DNA of 64,000 bases from Streptomyces camelliae (GTDB taxonomy: Bacteria; Actinomycetota; Actinomycetes; Streptomycetales; Streptomycetaceae): assembly GCF_027625935.1 (NCBI RefSeq), contig NZ_CP115300.1:2790001-2854000 (forward strand), read 5' to 3'. Shown here one piece after another: positions 35,063 through 40,099 of the stretch (its first letter is position 1; every line of letters starts with the position of its first letter). The notes under the pieces are model-generated. The model searched no databases and was not told the DNA's origin. It was given only the letters and a program-made list of their open reading frames with translations. A program made the position numbers and the translations under genes.

Positions 35063-38000
35063 TCAGCCCTTTTCCAAGAACTGCTCCCTCTCCTCGTCCA
35101 ACAAGGCGTCCAGGGCCGTGCGCAGGCCGGGAAGGTGCTCCAGCTCCGGATCCTCCGCCACCACCGCCGTCGCCTCCTCTCTCGCCTCCGCGATGACCTC
35201 CTCGTCCTCGATGACCGCGAGGACGCGCAAGGAGGAGCGGGCGCCGGACTGGGCCTGGCCGAGGACGTCGCCCTCGCGGCGCTGTTCGAGGTCGATGCGG
35301 GAGAGTTCGAAGCCGTCGAGGGTGGCGGCGACCGCGTTCAGGCGCTGGCGGGCGGCGCTGGCCTCGGGCATCTCGGTGACCAGCAGGCACAGGCCGGCGG
35401 CCGAGCCGCGGCCGACGCGGCCGCGGAGCTGGTGGAGCTGGGAGACGCCGAAGCGGTCGGCGTCCATGATCACCATGGCCGTGGCGTTGGGGACGTTGAC
35501 GCCGACCTCGATGACGGTCGTGGCGACCAGGACGTCCGTCTCGCCGGCCGCGAAGCGGCGCATGACCGCGTCCTTGTCGTCCGGGTTCATACGGCCGTGG
35601 AGGACCTCCACCTTCAGGCCCTGGAGGGGGCCCTTGGCCAGCTGGTCGGCCACGTCGAGGACCGCGAGCGGGGGGCGTTTCTCCGCCTCGTCCTCCGGGG
35701 ACTTCTTCTTGCCGGCCTTCTTGGGGTCGTCCTCCTCGTCCCCGATGCGGGGGCAGACGACGTACGCCTGATGGCCGTTCGCCACCTCCTCGCGGACCCG
35801 CTCCCAGGCGCGGGCCAGGAAGTGGGGCTTGTCGGCGGCCGGGACGACATGGCTGGCGATGGGCGAGCGGCCGGCCGGGAGCTGGTCGAGGACCGAGGTC
35901 TCCAGGTCGCCGAAGACGGTCATCGCGACCGTGCGCGGGATGGGGGTGGCCGTCATGACGAGGAGGTGCGGGGGCTGTTTGCCCTTGCCGCGCAGGGCAT
36001 CCCGCTGTTCGACGCCGAAGCGGTGCTGTTCGTCCACGACGACCAGGCCGAGGTCGTGGAACTGGACCTTGTCCTCGATGAGCGCGTGCGTGCCGATGAC
36101 GATGCCGGCCTCGCCGGTGACCAGGTCCAGCAGGGCCTGGCGGCGGGCGGCGGCCCCCATGGAGCCGGTGAGCAGCACGACCTTGGTGGCCTGCTCGGCG
36201 CCGCCCAGCATGCCTCCCTCGGCGAGCTCGCCCATCATCTCCGTGACCGACCGGTGGTGCTGCTGGGCGAGCACCTCGGTGGGGGCGAGCATGGCGGCCT
36301 GGCCGCCGGCGTCGACCGTGGCGAGCATGGCGCGCAGGGCCACCATCGTGTTGTGGGTGACCGTGAAGTTGTCGGTGACGTACGCGTGGCTCGGGTGAGC
36401 GACGCTGATGCACTGCACGGGTTTTCGTCCCACGTACTCGACGGCACGGATCCCTCGGCGGAAGGTGTCGTCCTCGGGACGTGGGCTCACGCGCTCGGCT
36501 TTGCGGGTGAGCCTGAACGGTGCGTATGCGTCGGGCAGGGCCAGCGAGACGTCGAAGGCGGCCTTCTCCGGCAGCACGCGGGCCCGGCCACCGAGCGACC
36601 GGACGAGCCAGGCGACATCGTCGGCGAGCCTGCGCGAGGCCGAGCACAGGGAGATGCTCAAGCCGTCCTCGCCGACGGTGCCATCGGCGTCCAGAAGGCC
36701 TTGCAGCAGAGCGAGACGGTTCTTGATCGAAGTGTTCTTGAAGTCGTCCGGGACGCATTCGTGCCGGGATGATCCGTCCCCCAGCGAGAGACCCAGCAGA
36801 TACGGATCGAGCGGCAGCCCCGAGTCGGCCCCGAGATCAACCGGGGTGGCTGCCGGGAGGTACCACTTCGAAGATCCGTCGGCTTCGGACGTGTCCAGCC
36901 GGAGCTCCCGGGTCGTCATGACCTCGGGGGCCTGGCCCCGGTGCCATCCGCCACTCGTGCCGACGATCCAGAGATGCTCGTCGTCGCACTCGACGGAGCT
37001 TCCATCGGAAAGGACCAGGCGCCAGACCTCACGCTCCCCTTGCGGGAACACACCGTCGATGAGCGCGATCTCCCCGTCCGGCACGACAACCTCGTCCCCC
37101 ACCGCCATGTCCCCCATGCGGCGGAAGCCTGCGGGAGTGAGCACGAGAGAGTCGAGCGGCTGTGCCTTGCCCGAACCCACCTCACCTTGCAGCAGCCGGT
37201 GCATCGGATGCTCGGTCGCCAGGTCGTCGAAGATCTCCTTGGAGACCTTCTGCTGGCCCTCGGTGAGGGTGAAGGGGAGGCGGTCGTCGAAGGCGGTGAG
37301 CAGCCCGTCGGGCGTGGGGCGCCGGGGAACGGCCGGGAGCAGGGCGTCCGCGTGGCGGCGGCGGGCCAGGGCCACCTGGAGGACGAAGGCCTCGTCCCAC
37401 TTCAGGCGGGCGCGGGCGTCGGCGATGTCCGCCTTGGTGTGCGGGCGATGGATCTTGAGCAGGGCCTCGGGGAGCGGGAGGAGGGCGCGGCCCTCGCGGA
37501 GGGACGGCGGCAGCGGGTCGACCGCCTCCTGGGCGGTGGGCAGGACCGTCTGGACCGCCTTGCCGATCTTCCAGGACTCCAGTTTGGCCGTGGCCGGATA
37601 GATGGGGATCAGGGCGCCGGCCCAGGCCTCGACGGTCTCGCCGCCGTCGCCGCGCAGCAACTCGTAGGCAGGGTGGGCCAGTTGGAGGCGGCGGTTGAAG
37701 ACGGAGACCTTGCCGGCGAACATCGCGCGCGTGCCCGGCAGCAGCTCCTTGTGCGGCTTGTGGACGCCGTTGCCGAAGAAGACCAGCTGGAGCCGGCCGC
37801 TGCCGTCGGTGATCGTGACCTCCAGGCGCTGGCCCTTGCCGCGCGGGGCCTTGGCGGAGGCGAAGGTGTGCAGCCGGGCGTCGGCCACCTGGGCGACCAC
37901 CGTGACGTGCTCGTCCATGGGGAGGTCGGCGAGGTGGGTGAGCTGGCCGCGCTCCTCGTATCTGCGCGGGTAGTGGTGGAGGAGGTCGCCGACGGTGTGC

Positions 38001-38098
38001 AGGCCGAGGTGCTCGGCCATCACCTTCGCGGTGGCGGGGCCGAGCACTGACTTCAGGGGCTGCTTCAGTGGTTCGTTCAGTGCGGGCACGAGATCCAT
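35063..38098 (-). CDS. recG: ATP-dependent DNA helicase RecG, interrupted by an intein
   Basis: RecG remodels stalled forks and branched DNA. The frame encodes 1,011 residues, of which 272 (residues 312-583) form an intein inside Walker A, so the spliced helicase would be 739 residues, normal for the family. The N-terminal wedge domain (about 1-270), Walker A rebuilt after splicing as GEVGSGK-T, the DEQH box (VVDEQHRFGVEQR), and the C-terminal motifs (ATTVIEVGVNVPNA, QLRGRVGRGS) are all present. The start is the ATG on 38098. Without splicing the P-loop is split and the helicase should be dead. Confidence 0.96.
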   Translation of the reverse strand: MDLVPALNEPLKQPLKSVLGPATAKVMAEHLGLHTVGDLLHHYPRRYEERGQLTHLADLPMDEHVTVVAQVADARLHTFASAKAPRGKGQRLEVTITDGSGRLQLVFFGNGVHKPHKELLPGTRAMFAGKVSVFNRRLQLAHPAYELLRGDGGETVEAWAGALIPIYPATAKLESWKIGKAVQTVLPTAQEAVDPLPPSLREGRALLPLPEALLKIHRPHTKADIADARARLKWDEAFVLQVALARRRHADALLPAVPRRPTPDGLLTAFDDRLPFTLTEGQQKVSKEIFDDLATEHPMHRLLQGEVGSGKAQPLDSLVLTPAGFRRMGDMAVGDEVVVPDGEIALIDGVFPQGEREVWRLVLSDGSSVECDDEHLWIVGTSGGWHRGQAPEVMTTRELRLDTSEADGSSKWYLPAATPVDLGADSGLPLDPYLLGLSLGDGSSRHECVPDDFKNTSIKNRLALLQGLLDADGTVGEDGLSISLCSASRRLADDVAWLVRSLGGRARVLPEKAAFDVSLALPDAYAPFRLTRKAERVSPRPEDDTFRRGIRAVEYVGRKPVQCISVAHPSHAYVTDNFTVTHNTMVALRAMLATVDAGGQAAMLAPTEVLAQQHHRSVTEMMGELAEGGMLGGAEQATKVVLLTGSMGAAARRQALLDLVTGEAGIVIGTHALIEDKVQFHDLGLVVVDEQHRFGVEQRDALRGKGKQPPHLLVMTATPIPRTVAMTVFGDLETSVLDQLPAGRSPIASHVVPAADKPHFLARAWERVREEVANGHQAYVVCPRIGDEEDDPKKAGKKKSPEDEAEKRPPLAVLDVADQLAKGPLQGLKVEVLHGRMNPDDKDAVMRRFAAGETDVLVATTVIEVGVNVPNATAMVIMDADRFGVSQLHQLRGRVGRGSAAGLCLLVTEMPEASAARQRLNAVAATLDGFELSRIDLEQRREGDVLGQAQSGARSSLRVLAVIEDEEVIAEAREEATAVVAEDPELEHLPGLRTALDALLDEEREQFLEKG
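36350..37165 (-). other. class 3 (WCT) intein in RecG with reduced homing endonuclease
   Basis: The 272-residue insert lies exactly between Lys and Thr of the Walker A motif. Block A starts with Ala (AQPLDSLVLTPAGFRRMGDM), not Cys or Ser. Block B ends CDDEHLWIV, with Trp after the His; block F is PVQCISVAHPSHAYV with Cys at position 4; block G is FTVTHN, with Thr before the terminal His-Asn; the +1 residue is Thr. Trp, Cys and Thr together are the class 3 signature. Two LAGLIDADG motifs remain (YLLGLSLGDG and LLQGLLDADG), but only about 20 residues lie between them, far fewer than in active enzymes. Two 60-base lines I counted are 65% and 68% G+C, lower than flanking recG. Confidence 0.93.
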
Positions 38099-38144
38099 TG
38101 CACACCACGGCACTGACAATGCCGTATATGTCTCCGGAAAGTCC

Positions 38145-38174: not shown

Positions 38175-38263
38175 GGCGCGCTCCGGCCATCCTTCGCGGT
38201 CACCGCCCCCTCCGGGACCGCCCGACCCCGCGCCGCACGCACTCCCCCTCCGGCGCAGTGACG

Positions 38264-40099
38264 ATGGACTCCCAGACCTCACAGTCATCCCAGGCATCCC
38301 AGTCACCTCACCCACCTCACACGTTCCAGGTCGACCTGCGCGGTCTGGTGGACCTGCTCTCGCACCACCTCTACTCCAGTCCCCGGGTCTATCTGCGCGA
38401 GCTGCTGCAGAACGCCGTGGACGCCGTCACCGCCCGGCGCGCCGAACAGCCCGATACCCCGGCCCGGGTACGGCTGTACGCGGACGGCGGGGCGCTGCGG
38501 GTGGAGGACACCGGCATCGGGCTCACCGAGGCGGACGTCCACGGTCTGCTGGCGACCATCGGCCGCAGCTCCAAGCGGGCCGACGGACTGCGCGAGGCCC
38601 GCTCCGATTTCCTCGGCCAGTTCGGGATCGGCCTGCTGGCCTGTTTCGTGGTCGCCGAGCGGATCCGGGTGGTCAGCCGCAGCGCTCGTACGCCCGATGC
38701 GCCGCCGGTGGAGTGGACGGCGAGCGACGACGGCTCGTACCGCGTCCGCACGCTGCCGCACGACGCCCGCCCCGAACCCGGTACGACCGTCCACCTGGTG
38801 GCGCGGGCCGGGGCCGGCGAGTGGCTGACCGAGCCCCGGGTGCTGGCCCTGGCCCGGGACTTCGGCTCGCTGCTGCCGTACGACATCCGGGTGGGCGAGG
38901 AGCCCGTCACCGACCTGCCCGCGCCCTGGGACCGGCCGTACCCGAGCCCCGCGAGCAGAAGGGTGGCGCTGGCCCGGCACTGTCATGAGCTGTTCGGGTT
39001 CACTCCGCTGGACTCGATCGACCTGGACGTGCCGCTGGCCGGGATCCGCGGGGTGGCGTACGTGCTGCCGGCGGCGGTCAGCCCGGCGCAGCGGGCGCGT
39101 CACCGGGTGCATCTGAAGGGCATGCTGCTGACCGAGCGGGCCGAACAGCTGCTGCCGGACTGGGCGTTCTTCGTGCGCTGTGTGCTGGACACCGACAGCC
39201 TGCGGCCCACGGCCTCGCGCGAGTCGCTGTACGAGGACGAGACGCTGGCCGCCGTGCGAGAGGCGCTCGGTGAAAGGATTCGCTCGTGGCTCACGGGACT
39301 CGCCGCCGGTGACCCGGAGCGGCTGCGGGCCTTCCTCGCCGTGCACCATCTGGGGGTCAAGTCCCTCGCCCGGCACGACGGCGAGATGCTGCGCACGATG
39401 CTGCCGTGGCTGCCGTTCGAGACGACCGACGGGCAGCTGTCCCTGGAGGAGTTCGCGCAGCGGCACCCGGTGGTGCACTTCACGCGGACCGTCGAGGAGT
39501 ACCGGCAGGTCGCGCCGATCGCGTCCGCGCAGGGTATCGGCCTGATCAACGGCGGCTACACGTACGACAGCGAGCTGGTCGAGGCGCTGCCGTCGGTGCG
39601 GCCCGGGACACCGGTCGCCGAGCTGGACGCGGACACCGTGACCGCGCACCTGGACTCCGTGGACCCGGCCGAGGAGCTGGCGCTGTCGGCTTTCCTCGCC
39701 GCCGCGCGCGTGAAGCTCGACCCGCTGGGCTGTGACGTCGTCCTACGGGCCTTTCATCCGCTCTCCGTGCCCGCGCTGCACCTGGACGACCGGGCCGCCC
39801 GGCACGAGCAGGCACGCGCGGACGCCGAGGAGCAGGCCGACGACCTGTGGGCGGGCATCCTGGGCTCGCTGCGCGGCAGCGCCCCGCGCGCGCGTCTGGT
39901 GCTCAACCATCTCAACCCGCTGGTGCGGCGCATCGGTTCACTGCAGGACCCCGAACTGATCGGCACCGCCACCGAGTCGCTGTACGGACAGGCCCTGCTG
40001 ATGGCGCAGCGCCCGCTGCGGCCGGCCGACTCGGCGCTGCTCAACCGGGCGTTCATCGGCCTGCTGGAGTGGGCCACTCATGGGGAAGGCGAGCGCTGA
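38264..40099 (+). CDS. HSP90-like (HtpG-type) ATPase
   Basis: An HSP90-family protein of about 611 residues. The N-terminal GHKL ATPase motifs are visible: ELLQNAVDAV (catalytic Glu, Mg-binding Asn), EDTGIGLTEAD, and GQFGIGLLACF in the lid. The middle part RPTASRESLYED matches the HSP90 middle-domain loop. The C-terminal region is divergent and lacks an MEEVD tail. It differs from classical HtpG in being shorter in the dimerisation part. The start may be this ATG or the GTG six bases earlier; neither has a clear ribosome binding site. Its stop overlaps the ATG of the TPR gene (TGATG), so the two proteins are probably made together. Confidence 0.85.
   Translation: MDSQTSQSSQASQSPHPPHTFQVDLRGLVDLLSHHLYSSPRVYLRELLQNAVDAVTARRAEQPDTPARVRLYADGGALRVEDTGIGLTEADVHGLLATIGRSSKRADGLREARSDFLGQFGIGLLACFVVAERIRVVSRSARTPDAPPVEWTASDDGSYRVRTLPHDARPEPGTTVHLVARAGAGEWLTEPRVLALARDFGSLLPYDIRVGEEPVTDLPAPWDRPYPSPASRRVALARHCHELFGFTPLDSIDLDVPLAGIRGVAYVLPAAVSPAQRARHRVHLKGMLLTERAEQLLPDWAFFVRCVLDTDSLRPTASRESLYEDETLAAVREALGERIRSWLTGLAAGDPERLRAFLAVHHLGVKSLARHDGEMLRTMLPWLPFETTDGQLSLEEFAQRHPVVHFTRTVEEYRQVAPIASAQGIGLINGGYTYDSELVEALPSVRPGTPVAELDADTVTAHLDSVDPAEELALSAFLAAARVKLDPLGCDVVLRAFHPLSVPALHLDDRAARHEQARADAEEQADDLWAGILGSLRGSAPRARLVLNHLNPLVRRIGSLQDPELIGTATESLYGQALLMAQRPLRPADSALLNRAFIGLLEWATHGEGER

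Follow-up and report, generated by a model that had tools for sequence, protein, structure and literature searches.

The best-known class 3 inteins are those of DnaB and of phages. The class is defined by a set of residues that includes a tryptophan in block B (PMC3196547), and one of its members, DnaBi1 of Mycobacterium smegmatis, sits in the helicase P-loop, where the P-loop serine is a splicing residue too (PMC6195587). RecG, too, is named among the hosts of inteins in a review of 2018 (PMC5874633, Table 1), in which the organism is given only as Eubacteria and the class and the site are unstated. Here we describe what is very likely a class 3 intein in the Walker A motif of RecG of Streptomyces camelliae, encoded in a stretch of 64,000 nucleotides (positions 2,790,001 to 2,854,000 of contig NZ_CP115300.1, assembly GCF_027625935.1) that we call the window. 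A literature search, with most subscription papers outside its reach, recognised no description of a class 3 intein in RecG, and according to our analysis the element represents a new site-family, its kind being known already.

The insert translates in frame from the minus strand into 272 residues, from AQPLDS to FTVTHN, and lies at the boundary between the Lys and Thr codons of the motif GSGKT (GEVGSGK/T, where the slash marks the junction here and below). The DNA reads ...GTGGGTTCGGGCAAG/GCACAGCCG... at one end of the insert and ...ACCCACAAC/ACGATGGTG... at the other, so that translation and junction DNA agree with the initial annotation of the stretch, which had placed the insert exactly there and within the limits given in the table below. 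The open reading frame (ORF) around it scores 1120 bits against the RecG equivalog model of NCBIfam, NF008167 (cut-off 995), the match being split into two stretches, one on each side of the insert. Translation probably begins at the ATG at 38098, for a protein of 1011 amino acids (aa), and the computed ligated RecG has 739 aa and about 80 kDa, close to the ~79 kDa that had been foreseen. One RecG gene was found in the genome, and the genome search gave no second, intact RecG, the other matches being at 2e-22 or weaker; the best of these is probably Mfd, as judged from an inferred name.

All residues that mark the class are in place, in the window copy as well as in each of the 71 Streptomyces RecG inteins (71/71). 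Residue 1 is neither Cys nor Ser but Ala1, block B has a Trp at its position 12 (Trp66, two residues after His64), block F has a Cys at position 4 (Cys252), and block G has a Thr at position 5 (Thr270), followed by His271, Asn272 and a Thr at +1. A HINT fold was found for the window insert too, and of the solved structures the M. smegmatis DnaB intein, itself of class 3, matches it best. The initial annotation had assigned the insert to class 3 on account of Ala at position 1, a Trp by the block B His, Cys at block F, Thr in FTVTHN and Thr as +1, and each of these residues, as well as the class itself, is supported by our data.

To see how the element is distributed we searched 392 Streptomyces genomes with the insert as a protein query. 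A match at E up to 1e-5 was obtained in 122 of them. For 71 genomes the top match lay below 1e-50; the stretches were read for all 71 and show RecG with an insert at this exact site, so about one in five sampled Streptomyces is a carrier. Six weaker matches were fetched, four of which were readable, three in PhoH and one in DnaB (hosts by sequence reading). A DNA pattern for the uninterrupted site, with up to 2 mismatches allowed, was present in 317 of the 392 genomes, while the reversed pattern, used as a control, was present in 1; when 52 of the 317 were read, all 52 had RecG with uninterrupted GEVGSGK-T. Intein-free recG alleles in related Streptomyces, for which the initial annotation had proposed to look, are thus abundant. 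The occupied and the empty sets do not overlap and leave four genomes in neither: G119, which aligns as an empty site on a frame-broken contig, and G001, G050 and G099, for which a full RecG match was not obtained. Since a homologous insert stands at the same codon boundary in 71 of 392 genomes, its position is not a matter of chance.

In a scan of genomes of named species, where the best 79 loci of 166 relatives were kept, 76 were at GEVGSGK/T in Streptomyces and 3 at GDVGAGK/T in Actinomadura; the one Actinomadura locus that was checked, of the three, is RecG (NF008167, 1057 bits against the cut-off of 995). The RecG-site intein also occurs in two other genera of the family (L136, L139). In a class-wide sample of 394 genomes, 18 loci of other families were read among the stronger rows, and none of these was at the RecG site. 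A relative with 54% identity over 92% of the query lies in a RecG-like helicase on a Rhodococcus plasmid, the RecG scores of this helicase being below curated cut-offs (648 vs 718). This plasmid-borne gene of Rhodococcus rhodochrous (L319:2103-5780) has its class 3 intein at the same site and adjoins tyrosine recombinase genes; the plasmid might carry the element from one genus to another. A tree of 65 chosen rows unites the 20 RecG-site inteins in one clade (support 100/99).

A quick RecG tree was made of 123 genes, namely the 71 occupied ones and 52 from the set of 317 empty ones. Occupancy must have changed at least 27 times on it, with 17 of the changes forced by starred branches, and such patchiness is as homing plus loss would give. 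The nearest relative by intein differs from the nearest by extein in 46 of the 71 cases; the window intein, its same-species copy aside, is nearest to L003, and the window extein, among intein-bearing RecG genes, to L028. The residue at +2 is Met (TMVA) in 71/71 occupied genes, and 35 of the 52 sampled empty sites have TMVA and 17 TLVA (Leu); a link between Met and occupancy is merely noted here, as the median p over tree-independent pairs is 0.0625. In the RecG tree the branch leading to one occupied gene, L072, is very long (0.55).

Several observations weigh against a mobile class 3 intein. The Pfam intein model PF14890 stays under its cut-off everywhere in this genome, with only two sub-threshold matches, and the intein call thus rests on the motifs, class 3 homology and the fold. 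The synonymous difference is larger in inteins than in exteins (0.54 vs 0.36 over all 2485 intein pairs), a comparison that is biased by the lower GC content at third codon positions of the inteins (0.847 vs 0.948); it follows that many copies are old residents and that the patchiness is partly due to loss. Taken by distance, the synonymous difference in occupied alleles gives no drop beside the site of the kind that recent homing with co-conversion might produce, and we do not claim a co-conversion tract.

By length the 71 inteins comprise 44 of 336-339 aa and 27 of 247-327 aa, and a 140-aa mini-intein is not among them (0/71). In a model of a 338-aa relative two LAGLIDADG repeats are seen, their helices lying at 121-130 and 213-227, and 323 residues of the model can be aligned with PI-SceI. 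The 44 long forms have the two complete repeats expected of an active LAGLIDADG endonuclease, under purifying selection, and in several of them an acidic position of a LAGLIDADG motif is altered; on these sequences, homing is predicted for the full-length inteins. The window copy is without residues 136-201 of the 338-aa form and does not hold two complete repeats. As it lacks these 66 residues of the first repeat, it should splice and be immobile. By the Nei-Gojobori method, applied to pairs in a set dS range of these high-GC genes and meant for comparative use only, the ratio of nonsynonymous to synonymous differences (dN/dS) in the endonuclease is 0.17 in full-length inteins (407 pairs, 44 sequences) against 0.58 in those below 300 aa (160 pairs, 20 sequences), and in the splicing blocks it is 0.05-0.09 and 0.19-0.32, respectively.

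The least expected result of our analysis is that the decay is one-sided. In all 27 short Streptomyces RecG inteins the main deletion lies inside residues 131-203 (338-aa numbering), the remainder of the first repeat, and residues 204-229 and 232-278 are close to fully occupied; many short forms have extra small gaps at 72-76, 230-231 and 279-296. The intein tree requires at least 7 changes between full and short forms, 4 of them forced by starred branches. When 7 deletion events, one pick of the 11 short clades made so as to equal the parsimony minimum, were placed at random in residues 113-300, they fell as close together as in the data (71 residues, coded as 131-201, although one sequence reaches 203) in 3 of 200,000 trials, and in 0 of 200,000 when all 11 short clades were used, figures to be read with the reservation that the region was picked after seeing the data and that just 4 changes are forced. 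We also compared inteins from other hosts or genera, 96 in number (99 distinct rows from which 3 references were taken off, with 3 loci skipped and 11 identical copies dropped). Eight of them are below 330 aa; seven have lost first-repeat sequence and keep most or all of the second repeat (L209, L320, L139, L171, L140, L238, L168), L237 has lost both repeats, and none has lost the second alone. L140 and L238 retain about half of the first repeat, the second LAGLIDADG helix is retained just in part in L209, and L139 may be non-independent, as it groups weakly with a short Streptomyces intein (82/81).

It would be tempting to suggest that class 3 inteins decay in a fixed order, where the first LAGLIDADG repeat goes and the second stays because its helical core has come to help fold or support the splicing domain; we hold this only tentatively, at somewhat under an even chance. 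In an old short clade of 12 sequences the second LAGLIDADG helix has a dN/dS of 0.32 and the helix after it 0.37; the value is 0.18 for blocks A-B, 0.48 for the C-terminal splicing stretch and 0.68-0.80 for the stretches next to the helices. In full-length inteins these helices are under much stronger constraint (0.14 and 0.05), which indicates a constraint that is relaxed, not gone, and slightly lowers our estimate for the fixed order. Against it also speak the gaps of short forms at 72-76 and 279-296 and the mycobacterial DnaB class 3 inteins, which splice without any endonuclease. Loss of the first repeat may instead reflect a deletion hot spot, or it may be simply better tolerated than loss of the second. 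PMC8966425, where the homing cycle is described, reports that one VMA intein spliced far less once its endonuclease was removed while another did not, and terms such dependence mutualism; the decay pattern of RecG inteins fits this idea and is no proof of it. If the fixed order holds, Streptomyces recG would offer a deletion series made by nature, in which to study the proposed reliance of splicing on the endonuclease scaffold.

From the conserved residues and the known mechanism of class 3 we infer the following course of events. RecG would be made as a 1011-aa precursor with its P-loop split between Lys and Thr. Cys252 would attack the Lys-Ala1 bond and take the N-extein, Thr+1 would then take it over from Cys252, and Asn272 would cyclise with the assistance of His271, to give a 739-aa RecG with an intact GSGKT loop. 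Thr+1 would thus play a double role, splicing nucleophile first and Walker A threonine after. We propose that the element spreads by homing at one site, with gain and loss, by means of the full-length two-repeat relatives, and that the window copy, whose first repeat was lost after its LAGLIDADG helix, would be immobile and may persist because its imprecise removal would break recG.

Other explanations were considered. The chance that the insert belongs to RecG itself, as ordinary sequence or as a domain peculiar to this protein, is as good as nil: nothing was found in favour of this reading, LAGLIDADG remnants are present in the insert along with a HINT fold, and the uninterrupted site in 317 of 392 congeners refutes it. 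Single-motif LAGLIDADG enzymes that act as dimers exist, and with this precedent, and both LAGLIDADG aspartates retained in the window copy (GDG, DADG), one could imagine that the half endonuclease of short inteins remains a DNA-cutting enzyme, two single-repeat proteins acting together as a dimer. We consider it highly improbable in view of the same-species copy L002, which has DAGG for DADG, and of the remnant dN/dS of 0.58 in short inteins as opposed to 0.17 in full-length ones.

A class 3 pseudogene intein is known, Arth_1007 (PMC3196547), but it is very improbable that our insert has ceased to splice, leaving recG a pseudogene or a source of cleaved pieces only: all listed splicing residues are intact in the window copy and in 71/71, the RecG frame is open with no second RecG found in the genome, and between the window copy and L003 there are 0 amino-acid changes in the C-terminal splicing block and 4 nonsynonymous versus 17 synonymous differences in the N-terminal one. 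Another candidate is a regulated switch, in which oxidation of Cys252 would delay splicing and keep RecG inactive, by analogy with what is reported for M. smegmatis DnaB. The P-loop DnaB intein of that species is of the same class and at the same kind of site, with a P-loop residue as the +1 nucleophile (PMC6195587), and a second Cys (Cys60) stands beside block B in 69 of the 71 RecG inteins. However, Cys60 differs in position from the reported partner Cys48, and the finding that 317 of 392 Streptomyces match the empty site and that copies come and go fits a selfish element; we regard the switch as unlikely. A class 3 intein that is predicted to splice out of RecG is the reading we prefer.

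Table. Coordinates of recG, its intein and their parts in the window
Feature	Position	Strand	Basis and remarks
recG, intein-containing ORF	35063..38119	-	1018 codons from TTG; RecG profile match; same-species protein P0002 has 1011 aa
N-extein of RecG, ending ...LLQGEVGSGK	37166..38098	-	ORF translation, junction DNA
Class 3 intein (very likely), 272 aa	36350..37165	-	translation, splicing residues, fold comparison
Block A region, residues 1-13 (AQPLDSLVLTPAG)	37127..37165	-	Ala1 replaces Cys/Ser; Ala1 in 71/71
Block B region, residues 55-68	36962..37003	-	D61-x-x-H64, Trp66 (W of WCT); Cys60 in 69/71
First LAGLIDADG motif, residues 122-133 (YLLGLSLGDGSS)	36767..36802	-	sequence alignment
66-residue deletion junction, between His135 and Glu136	36760..36761	-	alignment with 338-aa relatives; first repeat gone after its helix
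Second LAGLIDADG motif, residues 153-162 (LLQGLLDADG)	36680..36709	-	Pfam LAGLIDADG_3 at residues 150-194
Helix of kept second repeat, residues 182-193 (DDVAWLVRSLGG)	36587..36622	-	alignment
Block F region, residues 248-265	36371..36424	-	Cys252 (codon 36410-36412), expected initiating nucleophile; Cys in 71/71
Block G, NFTVTHN	36350..36370	-	Thr270 (T of WCT), His271, Asn272; all three in 71/71
C-extein of RecG, beginning TMVALRAM	35063..36349	-	ORF translation, junction DNA; +1 Thr codon 36347-36349

A gene with an HSP90-like ATPase domain (38258-40099, plus strand) is divergent to recG, and coaD-like and rsmD-like genes, so named after their family matches, are found downstream.

The significance of the RecG case is that a class 3 intein interrupts a recombination-repair helicase present as a single copy in the genome. 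Empty sites, a full endonuclease and partial and near-complete loss of one repeat are met in one genus at one codon boundary, and with such natural alleles one can test the homing cycle as well as the proposed reliance of splicing on the endonuclease as a scaffold. It is also a matter of annotation, as the relatives are poorly named (many of the 120 listed are just 'helicase-related protein') and the Pfam intein model is below its cut-off here.

Related inteins were met in further hosts. L150, the best-scoring non-RecG relative among the loci read, has its intein at HPVGAGK/T in a large protein with a helicase C-terminal domain. A Streptomyces DnaB (L033) apparently carries two inteins, a class 3-like one at the P-loop and a Cys-starting one further on. 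L140, L141 and L142 have a class 3 intein at EGN/TN; the host of L142 matches CHAP weakly (1.8e-4, below cut-off) and also matches PG_binding_1 (1.1e-11), and these three hosts are possibly prophage endolysins. PhoH-like proteins (host by sequence reading) of Streptomyces and other actinomycetes bear LAGLIDADG class 3 inteins at RGR/T (L031, L034, L036, L143-L149, L151-L167).

In comparison with known systems, the RecG family resembles PI-SceI and archaeal VMA inteins in a HINT domain that bears a two-repeat LAGLIDADG endonuclease; the latter are longer, have low identity to it (16-21%) and use class 1 chemistry. The PhoH class 3 inteins of actinomycetes share with the RecG intein the WCT residues, mostly the AQP start, the THN end and the LAGLIDADG domain, and differ in their site RGR/T outside Walker A and in forming their own clade. 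The P-loop inteins of phages (such as those of phage EL gp40 and of DarB-like proteins of large phages) are of the same class, but in other hosts and, in the tree of chosen rows, outside the RecG clade. In our viral scan the junction was GK/T or GK/S in 58 of 71 loci, and P-loop insertion is therefore common in this group, as the initial annotation had held for the class. The RecG entry in Table 1 of PMC5874633 concerns the same host protein. The class 3 inteins of mycobacterial DnaB (M. smegmatis DnaBi1, 6bs8; M. chimaera DnaB1, 6rix) are like the RecG intein in WCT, in the lack of an N-terminal Cys or Ser and in the HINT fold; however, they are chains of 139-145 aa from a DnaB host with Ser at +1 and no endonuclease, whereas the RecG intein of the window has kept half of a LAGLIDADG domain.
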